From: a virus
IMG/VR virus record: IMGVR_UViG_3300047678_000169
Location: 16,239-80,238 of that record
Direction: 5' to 3' (one strand)
Length of the DNA stretch: 64,000 bases
Positions 12,155-63,373 of the stretch are shown here, in pieces (the first letter of the stretch is position 1; every line of letters starts with the position of its first letter). The position numbers and the translations under genes were made by a program. Under the pieces are notes generated by a model. The model made no database searches. It was not told where the DNA came from and saw only the letters and a list, made by a program, of their open reading frames with translations.

Positions 12155-12648
12155 TGTAAATCTTTCTTGAGTTGTTCAACGTTTTTAGAGCATATTCCAT
12201 ATGCTTTCTTCATTTCTTCTCTAGACCACCCATTCTCCTCAGGCATTACTAATACACTTCTTGGTAAAGCAAATTTATAAGGATTGTTAACATGTGTCCA
12301 AACATAAGCTCGGCTGGTGATGGTATAGTCATCCTCTTGATGCCAAAAATAATGCATAGGATTGAATGTAGCCGTCAACCATCTTGGACACGATGAAAGG
12401 ACGCTCAAAGCATCAATGTTCTTACAATGGAGCCACAACCCATCCTTGAATATGAAATCACTTGGAACTTCATATTCAGGTTTGTCATGTCCTAAGAACC
12501 ACTTACCATCGATATATCGAATATCAACCTCGACATCATATCCGAGCATCAAAGCAAAGTTGACCCTTTCTGGATGATTTTCTAATCCAGAATTTGGCCC
12601 GGCTATCAATGCTCTGTGTGCGATTAATTTCAAGACTTGATTCCCCAT
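12151..12648 (-). CDS. GDPD/PI-PLC-like TIM-barrel protein, short
   Basis: LIAHRALIAGPNSGLENHPE at the start followed by GYDVEVDIRYIDGKWFLGHD matches the glycerophosphodiester phosphodiesterase pattern (HR, then E-x-D, then GHD). It has 165 residues, shorter than the usual ~250, so the second half of the barrel is reduced. It sits between the ISGHLR protein and the RuBisCO-like gene, with its first 19 bases inside the latter. A sugar-phosphate or phospholipid-type phosphodiester is a plausible substrate. Confidence 0.65.
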   Translation of the reverse strand: MGNQVLKLIAHRALIAGPNSGLENHPERVNFALMLGYDVEVDIRYIDGKWFLGHDKPEYEVPSDFIFKDGLWLHCKNIDALSVLSSCPRWLTATFNPMHYFWHQEDDYTITSRAYVWTHVNNPYKFALPRSVLVMPEENGWSREEMKKAYGICSKNVEQLKKDLQ

Positions 12649-13835
12649 TTGTTCACAGCAATACCATATTCCATTCCATATGCCTTATCGATAGATTGTC
12701 TGATGGCTCTTGCTCCGGCAACCGTTCCCATTGGGTGTCCGTGAATGGCTCCCCCAACGTTTGCCATATAATCTACTCCAAATCGTTTGTTGATACCTTC
12801 AATCAATCCGGCGTGCATACCACAGCTCAAAGCTGGGACTACGTTTCCATCACGAAGAACCTTTAAGGTCTTTTGCAAATCTTCTTCTGATTCGCTCATA
12901 TATCCACCCCACATTCCTGAATGGATTGTGTCAGCTCCCATCAAGGCAGCTAGCTGACAGATAATATCCCAAGCGATGCTGAAGCGGTGTGATTTGTCGG
13001 TGAATACTTTGTCGCCACTCTTTTGAAAGTGAAGATACAACGGGAGGTCCAATCTTCTAACTGAATTATATGCTCCAAGACCACACCAAACATTCAAGTG
13101 AATACCATTGCCACCAGCATCAGCAACAAATTTGGCTCTGTCCAAGATAGCGTGTGGGTCAGCATTGATGGCGGTGCAATAGACCACCTTGCGGCTTTGA
13201 TTGTTGAGCCAATTTGAAATCAATGGAACTCTTTCCTTTAAAGAACACACCGATGGGTTGGATAGAATTTCGTCTTCTTTGATAAAATCTACTCCACCAT
13301 CAACCAACTCCTTTACCATTTCCAATAGAATCTTTGGAGAAATTCCAGTTTTTGGTTTGATGATAGCTCCAAACAGAGGCTTGTCATATTGGCCTGTGTA
13401 GTTTCTCATTCCGGAGAAACCGTATTTTGGTCCTTTAAAATGCTTCTTGACGTTATCAGGAATATCTAAACCAATCAAACGACAGCCTTGAATTATGTCA
13501 ATATCCATTTGTCCTCCCATTAGTTGACACAATAGGTGAGAAATACCATCATCTTCCCAATCGGTGTTTGCTACTGGAAATCCAATTCTAATGTCTCCAT
13601 GTGTCTTCTTTCGTAGGTCATCTTCAGTAAATTCGGTTATAACAATACACGAATGATTTTCAAATAATTCATCTGTTTCGTGAATGCTACGCACGTTTGG
13701 ATTACCAACACTCTGACCAATGGCTAGGTTCCATGCTGCGTCTCTAAGATTTGAGTCGAGCGTAGAACGCAATTGATACGTGGCAATTACATAATCGTTC
13801 TGATTAACATCTGTCAGTGGTTTAAATAACTTCAT
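12630..13835 (-). CDS. RuBisCO-like protein (form IV-type, large-subunit fold)
   Basis: The 401-residue protein follows the RuBisCO large-subunit layout. FGAIIKPKTGIS has K160/K162 (equivalent to K175/K177). GGVDFIKEDEIL has K186, D188 and E189 (the carbamylated K201 and metal ligands D203/E204). H305 matches H327, S337 matches S379 and GG 361-362 matches G403/G404. In loop 6 (IHSGMWGGYMSES) Y312 replaces the catalytic K334, and Q271/K272 replace H294/R295, so CO2 fixation is unlikely. An enolase, isomerase or decarboxylase activity on a sugar or sugar phosphate, as in other RuBisCO-like proteins, fits better. Cupin, nucleotidyltransferase and SDR genes are adjacent, suggesting a nucleotide-sugar branch. 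Confidence 0.9.
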   Translation of the reverse strand: MKLFKPLTDVNQNDYVIATYQLRSTLDSNLRDAAWNLAIGQSVGNPNVRSIHETDELFENHSCIVITEFTEDDLRKKTHGDIRIGFPVANTDWEDDGISHLLCQLMGGQMDIDIIQGCRLIGLDIPDNVKKHFKGPKYGFSGMRNYTGQYDKPLFGAIIKPKTGISPKILLEMVKELVDGGVDFIKEDEILSNPSVCSLKERVPLISNWLNNQSRKVVYCTAINADPHAILDRAKFVADAGGNGIHLNVWCGLGAYNSVRRLDLPLYLHFQKSGDKVFTDKSHRFSIAWDIICQLAALMGADTIHSGMWGGYMSESEEDLQKTLKVLRDGNVVPALSCGMHAGLIEGINKRFGVDYMANVGGAIHGHPMGTVAGARAIRQSIDKAYGMEYGIAVNKWGIKS

Positions 13836-37722: not shown

Positions 37723-38127
37723 TGGTGGACCTGCGGGGAGTTGAACCCCGGTGTTTCATAAATTGCTCATCAGACATATACAAGCGTTAACACGGTGGAT
37801 ATGATTGTGGTTAGTAGTGTGCTCCACAAAAATTAGAGTCAGTAGTTTCTTCGTTGTTACAGTCTCACTTTCTCACAACGAACATATCAGCAGAGGTTGA
37901 CGTATTGACCCACTTATCTGCGTGGTGGAATACGGACTGCTCAGTTTATTAAGCAGCGACAGCCATAGCGGCTCCAACGTTCTTCGCCTTGCGGAGAAGT
38001 GTTAGAACATTTAGCTTAGCAAGATTTCTCTTAGCATTTAGTTTTTGTAATCAGGATTATGCAGGATGTTTACCACCTGCGCTTGCGTTCCGAGCTCAAC
38101 CCATAAAGTCGAATCCTGGACAGGCCC
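37723..38127 (-). ncRNA. ssrA: tmRNA (transfer-messenger RNA)
   Basis: The 5' end reads GGGCCTGTCCAGGATTCGAC, close to the conserved tmRNA start. The 3' end has T-arm CGGGG-TTCAACT-CCCCG and then CAGGTCC-A-CCA, which pairs with 5' GGGCCTG as the acceptor stem. At nt 93 (38035) a reading frame opens with GCT and ends at TAATAA (37946-37951), encoding a 28-residue tag that ends MAVAA, in line with protease-degron tags. The tag is longer than the 10-residue E. coli type. It would rescue stalled ribosomes during infection. Confidence 0.92.
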
Positions 38128-47737: not shown

Positions 47738-48120
47738 ATAATTTGTGGACATGTTTATTACCTTTTACGGCGTATTCAATGACCACAATCAAAAATCGAT
47801 TTAACCTTTTACGTAAGGGGTTGTCTTCTCACCTAATGTTTTGGAGCTATTGAGACTCCGAACTTGGCGCTCCCTAAACTACTCGCCAGAGCAACTTTCA
47901 ATAATCCTACTGGCTTTCGCGGTGAGTTGAACTAAACCGACTTTCAAACTTTTAAAGAACTGTCTATAACTATGTCACAATGATACGAATTGTCAACATA
48001 TAATTAGTTTTAGAATTGGGGAATTTTTGTGATATCGGGAGTCCACTCCGACACTTATTCTTCGCCAGCCGTTCCACGCACAGTGGACAACCAGACTTGA
48101 AGACTTCGCTGAATCACAAA
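47738..48120. other. gene-free stretch between tRNAs
   Basis: No convincing protein gene. A possible tRNA-like remnant (CCA near 47840, T-loop TTCGGAG) lacks pairing arms. The sequence 48020-48110 holds a GTCCACT/AGTGGAC inverted repeat. Confidence 0.5.
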
Positions 48121-48211
48121 TGGCGGAAGACTGAGTATTCGAAACTCAACGGCTTTTAAACCGTCAGCCGACTTTCCAGGTCGGTGTTGCCCCCTGGCAA
48201 CTTTACTCTCC
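48121..48211 (-). tRNA. tRNA-Ser(GGA)
   Basis: Class II. Anticodon arm CCGAC-CTGGAAA-GTCGG, T-arm TGAGT-TTCGAAT-ACTCA, CCA encoded, discriminator G. The acceptor has one mismatch and wobbles. A better-paired Ser(GGA) copy is at 58413-58504. Confidence 0.75.
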
Positions 48212-50292: not shown

Positions 50293-50378
50293 TGGTAGCC
50301 AAGGTGGGATTCGGACCCACAAGGACATCGCATTCTAAGTGCGGCGGTTCTTCCAATTTCCCTTTCGTCCACTTGGCC
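50293..50378 (-). tRNA. tRNA-Leu(TAG)
   Basis: Class II. Anticodon arm CCGCA-CTTAGAA-TGCGA, T-arm GTGGG-TCCGAAT-CCCAC (T-loop starts TCC), acceptor GGCCAAG/CTTGGCT, CCA encoded. Confidence 0.85.
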
Positions 50379-51750: not shown

Positions 51751-51836
51751 TGGTAGCCGTGGTGGGATTCGAACCCACAGAGGATAAGACGTTTTAAGTG
51801 TCTCGGTTGTAGCCAATTTCCCTAATCCACACGGCC
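51751..51836 (-). tRNA. tRNA-Leu(TAA)
   Basis: Class II. Loop CTTAAAA between AGACA and CGTCT, T-arm GTGGG-TTCGAAT-CCCAC, acceptor GGCCGTG/CACGGCT, CCA encoded. Confidence 0.85.
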
Positions 51837-51901: not shown

Positions 51902-51987
51902 TGGTGGGCATAAGAAGATTCGAACTTCCAAGGACTACGCATTTTGAATACGTCGCTTCTACCAATTTCGCTCTCGTCCACATGCCC
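51902..51987 (-). tRNA. tRNA-Leu(CAA), second copy
   Basis: Class II. Anticodon arm ACGTA-TTCAAAA-TGCGT, T-arm GGAAG-TTCGAAT-CTTCT, acceptor GGGCATG/TATGCCC, CCA encoded. Confidence 0.85.
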
Positions 51988-53598: not shown

Positions 53599-53684
53599 TG
53601 GTGCAAAGGACTGGATTCGAACCAGCGAAGCCTTACGGCGAAAGCTTATGAAACTCCCTGTTTTAGCCACTTACCTACCCTTGC
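53599..53684 (-). tRNA. tRNA with anticodon CAT (Met/Ile), class II-like variable arm
   Basis: Acceptor GCAAGGG/CCTTTGC, T-arm CTGG-TTCGAAT-CCAG, CCA encoded. The anticodon loop TTCATAA gives CAT. A variable arm GCC-GTAA-GGC is present, which is unusual for a Met or Ile tRNA. Confidence 0.65.
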
Positions 53685-53694
53685 GTTAAATTAA

Positions 53695-54029
53695 TCAGAG
53701 AAGCTATAGCCGATGTTCTGTCCAGAACCGAAGTCCCTGACCTTACATTTCTCTATGAGACGTAAATTTTGCCTCATTCCAAGCTTTTCGCCGGGATGCC
53801 CCTACCTTAGTATGCAAACGAGCGACTCACGCTCTCTACAATTTTTGGGTTACTGCGGATGATGTGGTATTAACGAACCGCTTGTGTCCGAGAACCATAG
53901 ACCCTCCTGATTTGGACTCAGGCACTATGGCGGTTGGATGATACAGCATTGTTCTCCCAGCTACGAGTCGAGCAGCATCGAACTTCCTCTATGGTTTTCT
54001 TTCCCACAGCGTAAGGTCGCTTACTCTGA
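53695..54029 (-). ncRNA. rnpB: RNase P RNA
   Basis: In RNA sense it contains AGAGGAAGTTCGATGCTGC and GACAGAACATCGGCTATAGC. These align with the universal P4 strands of RNase P RNA (GAGGAAAGUCCGGGC and ACAGAACCCGGCUUA), and their CGATG and CATCG pair. The 5' TCAGAG and 3' CTCTGA close helix P1. The length of about 335 nt fits. It lies inside the tRNA array and would trim 5' leaders of the phage tRNAs together with host RnpA protein. Confidence 0.88.
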
Positions 54030-54032
54030 AAA

Positions 54033-54124
54033 TGGTAGGCGTAGCTGGACTTGAACCAGCACTCGGCACCTATCAGGTGCGCCAGGTTTATAAAACCTGC
54101 GGTGCTACATTACACAATACGCCC
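54033..54124 (-). tRNA. tRNA with anticodon TAT (Ile), class II-like
   Basis: Anticodon arm CAGGT-TTTATAA-ACCTG, a 6-bp variable arm GCACCT-GAT-AGGTGC, T-arm GCTGG-TTCAAGT-CCAGC, acceptor GGGCGTA/TACGCCT, CCA encoded, A73. The D-loop lacks GG. A class II Ile(TAT) tRNA is unusual. Confidence 0.7.
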
Positions 54125-56361: not shown

Positions 56362-56444
56362 TGGTGCGTTCGGAAGGAATCGAACCTTCGCCTGCTTACG
56401 CTGGTTACGCGTCGCCCTTCCAACATGGGCCTTGATACAAGTGC
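56362..56444 (-). tRNA. tRNA-like gene, anticodon not assigned
   Basis: T-arm GAAGG-TTCGATT-CCTTC, discriminator A and CCA are clear, plus a D-arm GCCC-ATGTTGGAA-GGGC. Anticodon loop GTAACCA in ACGC/GCGT is possible. The 5' acceptor pairs only partly. Confidence 0.45.
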
Positions 56445-56499
56445 TTACCGCCTTCGAAGAGCAGAGTCACGTTCAACCATTTCCGCCACAAACGCAAAT

Positions 56500-57881: not shown

Positions 57882-57996
57882 TGGTGGACTAGGTGGGAAT
57901 CGAACCCACGTTTTCCGCTAGCGGAAGGACATTCCCACATCCCGTAATGGTGGAATGTATCGGAATCGAACCGATTATTTCTCCATAGACTAGCCC
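57882..57996 (-). tRNA. composite tRNA-like locus with a nested 3' end (115 nt)
   Basis: Outer acceptor GGGCTAG/CTAGTCC, T-arm GTGGG-TTCGATT-CCCAC and CCA enclose a second complete 3' end (ATCGG-TTCGATT-CCGAT, ACATTCC-A-CCA, with CCA at 57948-57950). The complementary GGAATGT lies downstream instead of upstream, giving a permuted look. A TTCCGC-TA-GCGGAA hairpin follows. Confidence 0.55.
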
Positions 57997-58001
57997 ACAA
58001 A

Positions 58002-58151
58002 TGGAGCCGATGATGGGAGTCTAACCTAGCAGATGAATTAGCTAACTTTGTCCAACTAATCAACATGTATTTTCATTGGGAGCTACCATTCCTTTCTACG
58101 ACATTTTCTTCAACTTAGAAAGTTGATGCTCTATCCTTGAGCTACACCGGC
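58002..58151 (-). tRNA. tRNA-Arg(TCT) with about 80-nt insert in the variable region
   Basis: Acceptor GCCGGTG/CATCGGC (7 pairs), D-arm GCTC-AAGGATA-GAGC, anticodon arm TCAAC-TTTCTAA-GTTGA (TCT), discriminator T and CCA. An insert of about 80 nt separates the anticodon arm from a weaker T-arm (CTAGG-TTAGACT-CCCAT). Confidence 0.65.
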
Positions 58152-58305: not shown

Positions 58306-58412
58306 GAACCTGAGATTCATCACCGTTAACCGGCGCTAGGAATTGCCTCAGGCATGTTATCATCCGAAGGCCATCACTAAATTTTCATTAGGAGAGGACG
58401 TTTTTCGGAGAG

Positions 58413-58504
58413 TGGCGGAAGACTGAGTATTCGAAACTCAAGCGGGTTTAACACCGCTCTCACGACTTTCCAAGTCGGTCTAGAACCTATCTAGTTAATC
58501 TTCC
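58413..58504 (-). tRNA. tRNA-Ser(GGA), well-paired copy
   Basis: Class II. Anticodon arm CCGAC-TTGGAAA-GTCGT, T-arm TGAGT-TTCGAAT-ACTCA, acceptor GGAAGAT/GTCTTCC, discriminator G, CCA. Confidence 0.85.
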
Positions 58505-61308: not shown

Positions 61309-61385
61309 TGGTGGAACAGGTGGGACTCGAACCCACAACCTTGTCTTTAGGAAAGACCTGCGCTGTCCAGTTGCGCCACAATTCC
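61309..61385 (-). tRNA. tRNA-Arg(CCT)
   Basis: Anticodon arm GTCT-TTCCTAA-AGAC, T-arm GTGGG-TTCGAGT-CCCAC, acceptor GGAATTG/CTGTTCC (one mismatch), CCA encoded. Confidence 0.82.
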
Positions 61386-61391
61386 ATAAAC

Positions 61392-61476
61392 TGGCAGGAG
61401 AGGAGCGACTCGAACGCTCAATGTCTTACGACGGCAGTTTTGGAGACTGCTGCAATACCAATTATGCGACTCACCT
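61392..61476 (-). tRNA. tRNA-Trp(CCA) with a class II-like variable arm
   Basis: Anticodon arm GCAGT-CTCCAAA-ACTGC, T-arm GAGCG-TTCGAGT-CGCTC, discriminator G and CCA. The variable region carries GTC-GTAA-GAC, unlike ordinary tRNA-Trp. Confidence 0.78.
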
Positions 61477-61482
61477 ATAAAA

Positions 61483-62127
61483 TTATACTCTTCCTTTTCT
61501 GAATCCTCTTGGGAGCGAATCGGTTTTTAGAACTAACTTGCTAACAAGTCCGTTGGTAATCCAATGTTTTCCAAACGACGGATTTTTCTTACCGTCAAAC
61601 ATTCCTTGTTTTGCATCGCTCATTTTCTTTTTTGTTTCTTCTGAATGTTCTTTTCCTTGGAATGGATTTCCGTTTATAGACTGATATAACAGACTTCTAT
61701 TTGATAGTTTTTGAGTAAATTCTATTCTAAATTGTTCGTCGGTTTTATATTTATCCCACAATTTATTCGCCGCTGCCTTACCCATTTTTGTGTAGTGTTC
61801 TTTGGAACGATTTACTTTGTTTCCATTTTTTCCAGTTGAATTGATGTAATCATACCCACCATTTCCTCCTAATTTGATGTTGTATGTGTCATCTCTGGCA
61901 ATAAATTCTTCATCAACTATGTCGGTTTCTTTTTGGTTCATTTCTTCTTCCGTATTACACTCAAAAAGCAACTCTTTGACAAAGTGTTCTTTTCCATGTT
62001 TCTCTACTGCCCGACCAAGCAAAACTCCAGAGCCAAAATACTCATCGTCTTTGTTTTCAGTTTTGTGTTTTCCGACGTAAATTTTATTGTTCAGTTTATT
62101 GGTAATTTTGTAAATCAAGTAGTGCAT
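61483..62127 (-). CDS. GIY-YIG homing endonuclease with NUMOD3 repeats
   Basis: YLIYKITNKLNNKIYVGKHK is the GIY-YIG core, AVEKHGKEHFVKELLFE the following helix, and KKMSDAKQGMFDGKKNPSFG the NUMOD3 DNA-binding repeat. It has 214 residues. Pseudogene 46925-47575 is its decayed relative. An ATACTTAT element lies just upstream of the ATG. It sits inside the tRNA array, a favoured site for such mobile genes. Confidence 0.88.
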   Translation of the reverse strand: MHYLIYKITNKLNNKIYVGKHKTENKDDEYFGSGVLLGRAVEKHGKEHFVKELLFECNTEEEMNQKETDIVDEEFIARDDTYNIKLGGNGGYDYINSTGKNGNKVNRSKEHYTKMGKAAANKLWDKYKTDEQFRIEFTQKLSNRSLLYQSINGNPFQGKEHSEETKKKMSDAKQGMFDGKKNPSFGKHWITNGLVSKLVLKTDSLPRGFRKGRV

Positions 62128-62131
62128 ACCA

Positions 62132-62139
62132 ATAAGTAT
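62132..62139 (-). promoter_or_regulatory. ATACTTAT element upstream of GIY-YIG gene
   Basis: Same element, minus strand, 5 bases before ATG 62127. Confidence 0.45.
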
Positions 62140-62181
62140 TAGTTCAATACTTCAAATCGAACCAACTTGGACTTATTATAA

Positions 62182-62268
62182 TGGGGTGATTAACGGGATT
62201 TGAACCCGCACGGATTTCTCCGCTAGATTCACAGTCTAGCGCGTCTAGCCAATTTCGCCATAACCACC
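62182..62268 (-). tRNA. tRNA-His(GTG) on a class II (Leu-like) scaffold
   Basis: Anticodon arm CTAGA-CTGTGAA-TCTAG (GTG), acceptor GTGGTTA/TAATCAC with an extra G-1 opposite C73, the His identity pair. The D-arm (GCG-AAATTGGCTAGA-CGC) and a variable arm CGGA-GAAA-TCCG are of Leu type. CCA encoded. Confidence 0.82.
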
Positions 62269-62273
62269 ATAAA

Positions 62274-62352
62274 TGGTCGGCCCGGTCAGATTTGAACTGA
62301 CATTATTCTTCGCCCCAAACGAAGCGCCATGACCAGATTAGGCGACGGACCG
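62274..62352 (-). tRNA. tRNA-Pro(TGG)
   Basis: Anticodon arm CTTCG-TTTGGGG-CGAAG, T-arm GTCAG-TTCAAAT-CTGAC, acceptor CGGTCCG/CGGGCCG, CCA encoded. Confidence 0.87.
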
Positions 62353-63013: not shown

Positions 63014-63077
63014 GTTAAACTATCATTTTCAGTTTCATATAAATATATGACAGTTAGATGAAAACACAAGAAAATAT

Positions 63078-63160
63078 GGTGGTGTCGGTGGGACTCGAAC
63101 CCACGATGTTTGTATTTCGGCTTAAAAGGCCGAACCAATCGCCGCTATGGGGACGACACC
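63078..63160 (-). tRNA. tRNA-Lys(TTT)
   Basis: Anticodon arm TCGGC-CTTTTAA-GCCGA, T-arm GTGGG-TTCGAGT-CCCAC, acceptor GGTGTCG/CGACACC, CCA encoded. D-arm and variable region are longer than usual. Confidence 0.85.
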
Positions 63161-63286: not shown

Positions 63287-63373
63287 TGGTGCTCCGGGAG
63301 CGACTCGAACCCCCGTTGGTTATTACACATCGGCTTAAAAGGCTAAACTATTCGCCGCTATAGGAACCGAAGC
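63287..63373 (-). tRNA. tRNA-Lys(TTT), second copy
   Basis: Anticodon loop CTTTTAA in TTAGC/GCCGA (one mismatch), T-loop TTCGAGT, acceptor GCTTCGG/CCGGAGC, CCA encoded. Shares the CATAGCGGCG-like D-region with the previous Lys gene. Confidence 0.78.

Follow-up and report, generated by a model that had tools for sequence, protein, structure and literature searches.

Long variable arms in bacteria mark, by a textbook rule, the tRNAs for leucine, serine, tyrosine and selenocysteine, known as class II. In nematodes, nev-tRNAs are class II tRNAs that bear non-leucine anticodons and are charged with leucine. Allo-tRNAs and the selC-type tRNA-Cys are, likewise, bacterial long-arm tRNAs outside the Leu, Ser and Tyr isotypes (PMC7609411). 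The virus DNA analysed here carries a tRNA-His(GTG) and a tRNA-Trp(CCA) that both have a long variable arm. A literature search, with most subscription journals outside its reach, found no paper describing such phage tRNAs.

The window, meaning the whole 64,000-nucleotide stretch analysed, comprises the final 64 kb of an 80,238-base IMG/VR virus record, which lacks end repeats and is therefore probably a fragment. It encodes GroEL, UvdE, a Pif1/Dda-type helicase, a homologue of the RuBisCO large chain, glycosyltransferases, homing endonucleases and a tmRNA, together with a large array of minus-strand tRNA genes, of which ARAGORN called 33 and Rfam found others (Table 1). The earlier note on this DNA, made from the letters alone, reported long arms on His and Trp, which understates the case, as tRNA-Met(CAT) and tRNA-Ile(TAT) of the same array are also long-armed. 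The class II label, used here for variable regions of at least 10 nt that fold into a hairpin, was dropped for both tRNA-Lys(TTT) genes, whose variable regions fold into no stable hairpin.

Table 1. Features of the tRNA array in the window (positions in the window; VR, variable region).
Feature	Positions	Strand	Called by	Remarks
tRNA-Leu(TAG)	50293..50378	-	missed by ARAGORN	short VR, TGTCCTT
tRNA-Leu(TAA)	51751..51836	-	Rfam, 40.3 bits, above gathering score	short VR, TATCCTCT
tRNA-Leu(CAA)	51902..51987	-	missed by ARAGORN	short VR, AGTCCTT
tRNA-Met(CAT)	53599..53684	-		long hairpin arm C-GCC-GTAA-GGC-TTC; common to sister phage
tRNA-Ile(TAT)	54033..54124	-	ARAGORN	22-nt variable arm, 6-bp stem
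tRNA-Arg(CCT)	61309..61385	-	ARAGORN	syntenic marker past Trp; sister phage has same
tRNA-Trp(CCA)	61392..61476	-	ARAGORN, Rfam	class II; 14-nt VR, C-GTC-GTAA-GAC-ATT
GIY-YIG/NUMOD3 homing-endonuclease-like gene	61483..62127	-		between His and Trp
tRNA-His(GTG)	62182..62268	-	ARAGORN, Rfam	class II; 13-nt VR, CGGA-GAAA-TCCG + T
tRNA-Pro(TGG)	62274..62352	-	ARAGORN	syntenic marker for Pro-His-Trp block
tRNA-Lys(TTT)	63077..63160	-		12-nt VR without hairpin; near-identical in relative L150
tRNA-Lys(TTT)	63287..63373	-		degenerate looking; 15-nt VR without stable hairpin

Several other elements of the window are recorded as observations in their own right. The tmRNA lies at 37723-38127 (-), and that of the sister phage introduced below at L131:5562-5953. 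The RuBisCO-large-chain homologue at 12630-13835 (-) (Pfam E = 2e-39; closest PDB entry 4nas) has K175-like and carbamylation-site motifs, and is probably a RuBisCO-like protein, as its K334 region is not conserved. Between tRNA-Ile(TAT) and tRNA-Met(CAT), at 53702-54024 (-), lies a candidate class B RNase P RNA (42.7 bits, E = 5.7e-9, below the gathering score of 97), and a weak RNase P match occurs at the corresponding place in the sister phage (L138:6236-6400). Two Rfam tRNA matches above the cut-off contain inserts: that at 58002-58151 (-), of 150 nt, is a probable Arg(TCT) with a very large insert after the anticodon stem, and that at 56362-56495 (-), of 134 nt, has a very large insert and may be an Arg(TCG). 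At 57882-58092 (-) there are overlapping tRNA-like pieces, their acceptor halves seemingly interleaved with halves of adjoining tRNAs, while a 116-nt element in a relative (L150:2236-2351) looks like a Leu(CAA) with a self-complementary insert of ~30 nt within the anticodon loop. Inspection by eye pointed to two further genes, probably tRNA-Ser(GGA), that ARAGORN had left uncalled, at 58401-58490 and about 48110-48210 (-), the latter with an odd D arm.

tRNA-His and tRNA-Trp were each found independently by ARAGORN and by Rfam RF00005 (53.0 and 46.6 bits, respectively, against a gathering score of 29). Both form a complete ARAGORN cloverleaf, with the standard 7-bp acceptor stem and 5-bp T stem, an encoded CCA and intact loops. 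The variable region of tRNA-His, CGGAGAAATCCGT, forms a 4-bp stem closed by a GAAA (GNRA) loop, and its stability is matched by 0.25% of shuffled arms; that of tRNA-Trp, CGTCGTAAGACATT, forms a 3-bp stem with a GTAA (GNRA) loop, matched by 0.8%. The single-sequence minimum-energy folds of the window Trp and Met are cloverleaves, and that of His is not.

The identity elements of the pair are, for the most part, those of the amino acids that their anticodons specify. tRNA-His has a genomically encoded G-1 (position 62268) and C at position 73 which, with the GTG anticodon, make up the bacterial tRNA-His set (PMC9976931), and it departs from bacterial tRNA-His in the size of its variable region (13 nt vs 4-5 nt), a property that is no identity element in the published set (PMC9976931). 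Its D and T arms are Leu-like. tRNA-Trp has the CCA anticodon, G73, A1-U72, G2-C71, G3-C70 and G5-C68 of the bacterial Trp set (PMC9976931), lacking G4-C69 and A9, in place of which there are a U4:U69 mismatch and C9. The earlier note had described several of these traits (the long hairpin, G-1:C73 and Leu-like D arm of tRNA-His, and the GTC-GTAA-GAC arm and G73 of tRNA-Trp), and the present analysis agrees with it on each. Despite its Leu-like body, the window His falls outside tRNA-Leu, having C73 and GTG against A73 and a Leu anticodon, and outside tRNA-Ser by C73 and by its arm geometry of (0,1), counted as the unpaired bases that flank the arm stem 5' and 3'. The window Trp is excluded from tRNA-Ser by U72, which is not C72, and by a geometry of (1,3), shared with the window Met. 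With a 7-bp acceptor and a 5-bp T stem, neither tRNA has the elongated, tRNA-Sec-like acceptor of allo-tRNAs and selC-type tRNAs.

Related phages allow the history of the two genes to be followed. A sister phage, represented by three near-identical records (G001, G004 and G005) fetched with a pattern for the Met arm, carries a tmRNA and upwards of about 40 tRNAs, and repeats the window's order Pro(TGG)-His-Trp-Arg(CCT). Its Met is class II with the same arm as the window's, its Ile(TAT) is class I, against the long-arm Ile(TAT) of the window, and its His is class I. The sister Trp is class II, with an arm (GTTT-TAAA-AAAC) that differs from the window's but keeps the hairpin, and with an intact acceptor stem, free of the mismatch seen in the window. 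A third lineage (L150, G006) retains the Pro-His-Trp order and a class I His orthologous to that of the sister phage; its Trp is class I, with the 6-nt CACCCT in place of CGTCGTAAGACATT, and is nearly identical to the window Trp over the first 43 nt. By these comparisons, Trp is a single lineage whose arm changes, and the window His is a different tRNA occupying the same slot. In the supported Trp clade, five of six members are class II, which is compatible with arm gain or loss; given that proportion, L150 may represent a loss.

The earlier note had offered, as one possibility, that the phage evolved both tRNAs from a Leu scaffold, and this survives for His alone. In a nearest-neighbour test among about 2,400 distinct tRNAs from fetched loci, 19 of the 20 closest to the window His, with the anticodon masked, are long-arm Leu (17/20 with the arm also removed), and in a BLAST search of 50,697 phage records the matches spanning about 80% of the molecule are tRNA-Leu. 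A change from Leu(GAG) to GTG takes a single anticodon base, and G-1 and C73 then complete the bacterial His set; by these likenesses, tRNA-His looks to have been built on a Leu scaffold. The nearest relative of the window Trp is, in contrast, the short-arm Trp of L150 at the same position. Two candidates were set aside, as the tRNA-His of Cellulophaga phage phi19:1, matching the window His, proved to be class I, and a Pseudomonas jumbo-phage match to the Trp arm proved to be a tRNA-Leu. The His-Trp gap is 128 nt in the sister phage, and in the window it carries the GIY-YIG homing-endonuclease-like gene; that this gene drove the replacement of His is a guess.

Long-arm tRNAs of unexpected isotype extend well beyond this array. 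A class II Trp pattern scan of IMG/VR returned at least 120 stretches, in which ARAGORN confirmed at least 112 class II tRNA-Trp, and which also held class II Asn, Lys, Met, Cys, Thr, Arg and Ile. Scanning for class I Trp also gave at least 120 stretches, so the two scans yield no relative abundance. The patterns demand particular loop and end sequences, so that variants can be missed. The impression from the selected scan that class II Trp is very common did not hold up: in a sample of 774 distinct tRNAs retrieved through Asn tRNAs, whether long- or short-armed, long arms were present in 11/98 Asn, 8/32 Ile, 4/56 Met, 2/40 Lys and only 1/24 Trp, with 0/18 in His. The same sample gave no long arm in Phe, Val, Glu, Asp or Arg. 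Neither this sample nor those behind the other counts are uniform; arm boundaries throughout are those of ARAGORN, and loci of related phages are not independent. Long-arm Trp and His are thus uncommon in it, and most lineages therefore do not keep them. Two 'class II His' calls (L001 and L002) were not used, their acceptor stems being mismatched, and some long-arm calls may therefore represent decaying genes.

Cultured phages also provide an example. Caulobacter phage CcrColossus (JX100810) has class II Trp and Lys tRNAs, with arms CGGCGCAAGCCTTC and TGGACGAAAGTCCCACC, which its record annotates as plain tRNA-Trp and tRNA-Lys; in its relative, Brevundimonas phage Kabachok, the Trp beside the same two Gly tRNAs has a region of 8 nt. 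In a second near-identical Trp pair the chief difference is the hairpin, with GATTAGAAATAATCA in L105, L118 and L010 against GATTA in L165. Two contigs (L034 and L042) each have two tRNA-Trp genes, of which one belongs to class I and the other to class II. On a tree of 189 Trp cores (57 columns, arm and anticodon left out), the class label needs 24 changes, a count that error inflates, with at least nine on supported branches. Derivation of all class II Trp from Ser or Leu through an anticodon change was rejected, since 67/79 are nearest to class I Trp, a result that shared identity bases favour.

Bacterial genomes gave a different picture. Across 296 and 299 genomes of two bacterial phyla, none of the class-II-spaced matches inspected among those listed was a tRNA-Trp, and a pattern covering both spacings had a match in 290/296 genomes of the first phylum. 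A class II His pattern produced seven matches in the genome_contigs of 84,980 species, none of them called tRNA-His by ARAGORN. The restriction of long arms to Leu, Ser, Tyr and Sec, on which the earlier note relied, thus stands in the bacteria scanned (for Trp among the matches listed, and for His in genome_contigs, with patterns that can miss variants), but breaks down in phages.

What limits the arm can be read from the acceptor end and from arm geometry. U72 occurs in 69/79 class II Trp (among the matches listed) and in 7/123 class II Ser (Fisher p = 1e-34), the latter having G1-C72 and G2-C71, while G73 is found in 78/79 class II Trp but was demanded by the search pattern. By isotype, the arm geometry is (1,1) in Ser (117/166), (0,1) in Leu (77/112) and (1,3) in Tyr (26/58). 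The Ser type is rare elsewhere: 1/61 Trp, 1/18 Asn, 0/13 Lys, 0/10 Met, 0/18 Ile and 0/3 Cys. These figures agree with the established rule that SerRS depends on the long arm and that, given G73, no enzyme is likelier to mischarge a long-arm tRNA (PMC7609411, PMC9976931). The arm is absent in 69/192 distinct phage tRNA-Leu, with A73 in 65/65, and in 2/169 Ser, both without CCA and doubtful; in the Asn-fetched sample, which was not selected on Leu or Ser, the figures are 24/60 Leu vs 0/49 Ser (p = 5e-8). That class II Trp keeps U72, that long-armed Trp, Asn, Lys and Met avoid (1,1), and that Leu often loses the arm and Ser essentially never does, all point to synthetases as the limit on the arm. 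Together, the data show that the phage long arm comes and goes rather freely, except where SerRS must read it.

The loss of the Leu arm also affects annotation, as ARAGORN misses the three short-arm Leu genes of the window. In short-arm Leu tRNAs (these three, L138:8924-9008 and L104), GTCC or ATCC of the variable region can pair with GGAC or GGAT in the 5' part of the D region, and across four sequences one pair changes in a compensatory manner. If a helix joining these two regions replaced the arm hairpin, the tRNA would have an unusual fold.

The reading we favour, with a probability of about 0.72, is that the two genes are tRNAs of standard meaning and that HisRS and TrpRS, by ignoring the arm, allow it to be there; the structures, the synteny, the identity elements and the geometry statistics are what the data show, and charging, expression and near-neutrality of the arm are what we infer. 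Both would work as elongator tRNAs in a large tailed phage that brings most of its tRNA set with it, reading CAY and UGG with their standard meaning. HisRS and TrpRS would recognise them through the anticodon and acceptor end, leaving the variable region free to change, so that the long arm may be structural freight, unread by the host enzymes, whose presence and absence are both possible. A Leu-type tRNA that gained GTG and G-1:C73 would have displaced the class I tRNA-His from its slot in the array, and the Trp arm would have been gained or lost in place within the L150-related lineage. SerRS and LeuRS may be excluded through position 73, position 72 and arm geometry. SerRS, which needs the arm, could be the main limit across phages: Ser retains it, and long-armed Trp, Asn, Lys and Met avoid the Ser-type geometry, Trp also avoiding the Ser 1-72 pair. 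Counting against this reading are the U4:U69 mismatch and missing A9 of tRNA-Trp, the minimum-energy fold of tRNA-His, which is not a cloverleaf, the mismatched 'His' calls of L001 and L002, and the scarcity of long-arm Trp and His in the Asn-fetched sample. Neutral hairpins, moreover, should decay with time, but good pairing persists in many, a hint of some selection.

An adaptive role is the most serious competitor, although we consider it unlikely. The arm, or its loss in Leu, would be kept to block host defences that cleave or modify tRNAs and read the normal tRNA shape, candidates being anticodon nucleases, VapC toxins, PARIS and retron effectors. Phage tRNAs are reported to evade anticodon nucleases via loop changes (PMC10264068) and to counter a retron and PrrC (PMC11555353), and VapC52 is able to cleave tRNA-Ser in the variable loop, a part of the molecule that toxins thus do reach (PMC13273310). 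The class change is recurrent on the Trp tree and the arms are folded hairpins. Most of the cited toxins, however, cut the anticodon loop, which is unchanged in the window tRNAs, and the isotype pattern tracks synthetase need, with Ser keeping and Leu losing the arm, as tolerance alone predicts. Moreover, the sister phage retains a class I His, and L150 a class I Trp. A wider form of the idea, also doubtful, holds that the class I/II split fails both ways in phages, that Trp, Asn, Lys, Met and His gained their arms under positive selection, a changed tRNA shape letting them escape host defences that target tRNAs, and that the SerRS geometry is avoided against mischarging.

Altered or ambiguous decoding, in which partial charging by LeuRS or SerRS would place Leu or Ser at some His and Trp codons, is very improbable. 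tRNA-His is indeed Leu-like outside its identity elements, and the G73 and G2-C71 of tRNA-Trp are also Ser elements, to which the long arm is added (PMC9976931). Against this, C73 and G-1 belong to the His set, whereas the Leu determinant is A73 (PMC9976931), and tRNA-Trp has neither C72 nor the Ser arm geometry. In an alignment of UvdE, CAY and TGG codons fall at conserved His and Trp positions, and ordinary His and Trp tRNAs occupy the same slots in related phages; the earlier note's suggestion of non-standard decoding is therefore not upheld. That the genes are decaying, non-functional debris of recombination in the array would account for the U4:U69 mismatch, the homing-endonuclease gene adjoining both and the wealth of degenerate tRNA-like pieces, but is equally hard to credit for tRNAs with complete cloverleaves, encoded CCA, correct identity elements and intact loops, when the Trp arm differs in sequence from the sister's with the hairpin kept and class II Trp recurs in many lineages with conserved U72 and G73.

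Tolerance of the arm by HisRS and TrpRS thus remains the preferred account, and phages appear to break the textbook class I/II rule repeatedly and in both directions. This provides a natural experiment in synthetase recognition of the variable region, with a pattern that predicts testable charging outcomes, and offers ready-made tRNA scaffolds for genetic code engineering. It also suggests that studies of tRNA evasion by phages look past the anticodon loop.

Compared with known systems, the window pair shares with ordinary bacterial class I tRNA-His and tRNA-Trp the anticodon, discriminator base, G-1 (His), A1-U72 (Trp), 7-bp acceptor and 5-bp T stem, but has a hairpin arm of 13-14 nt instead of 4-5 nt, and a His body that is tRNA-Leu-like. 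The class II tRNA-Leu of phages and bacteria has the D arm, T arm and (0,1) geometry of the window His, which carries GTG, C73 and G-1 in place of a Leu anticodon and A73. Nematode nev-tRNAs likewise combine a long arm with the anticodon of a class I isotype; whereas these are charged with Leu, the window acceptors carry the identity elements for the amino acid that their anticodon specifies. Allo-tRNAs and selC-type tRNA-Cys have elongated, tRNA-Sec-like acceptors (PMC7609411), unlike the standard 7/5 arrangement of the window pair. The class II Trp and Lys of CcrColossus display the same trait in a cultured phage, on tRNA bodies unrelated to those of the window.
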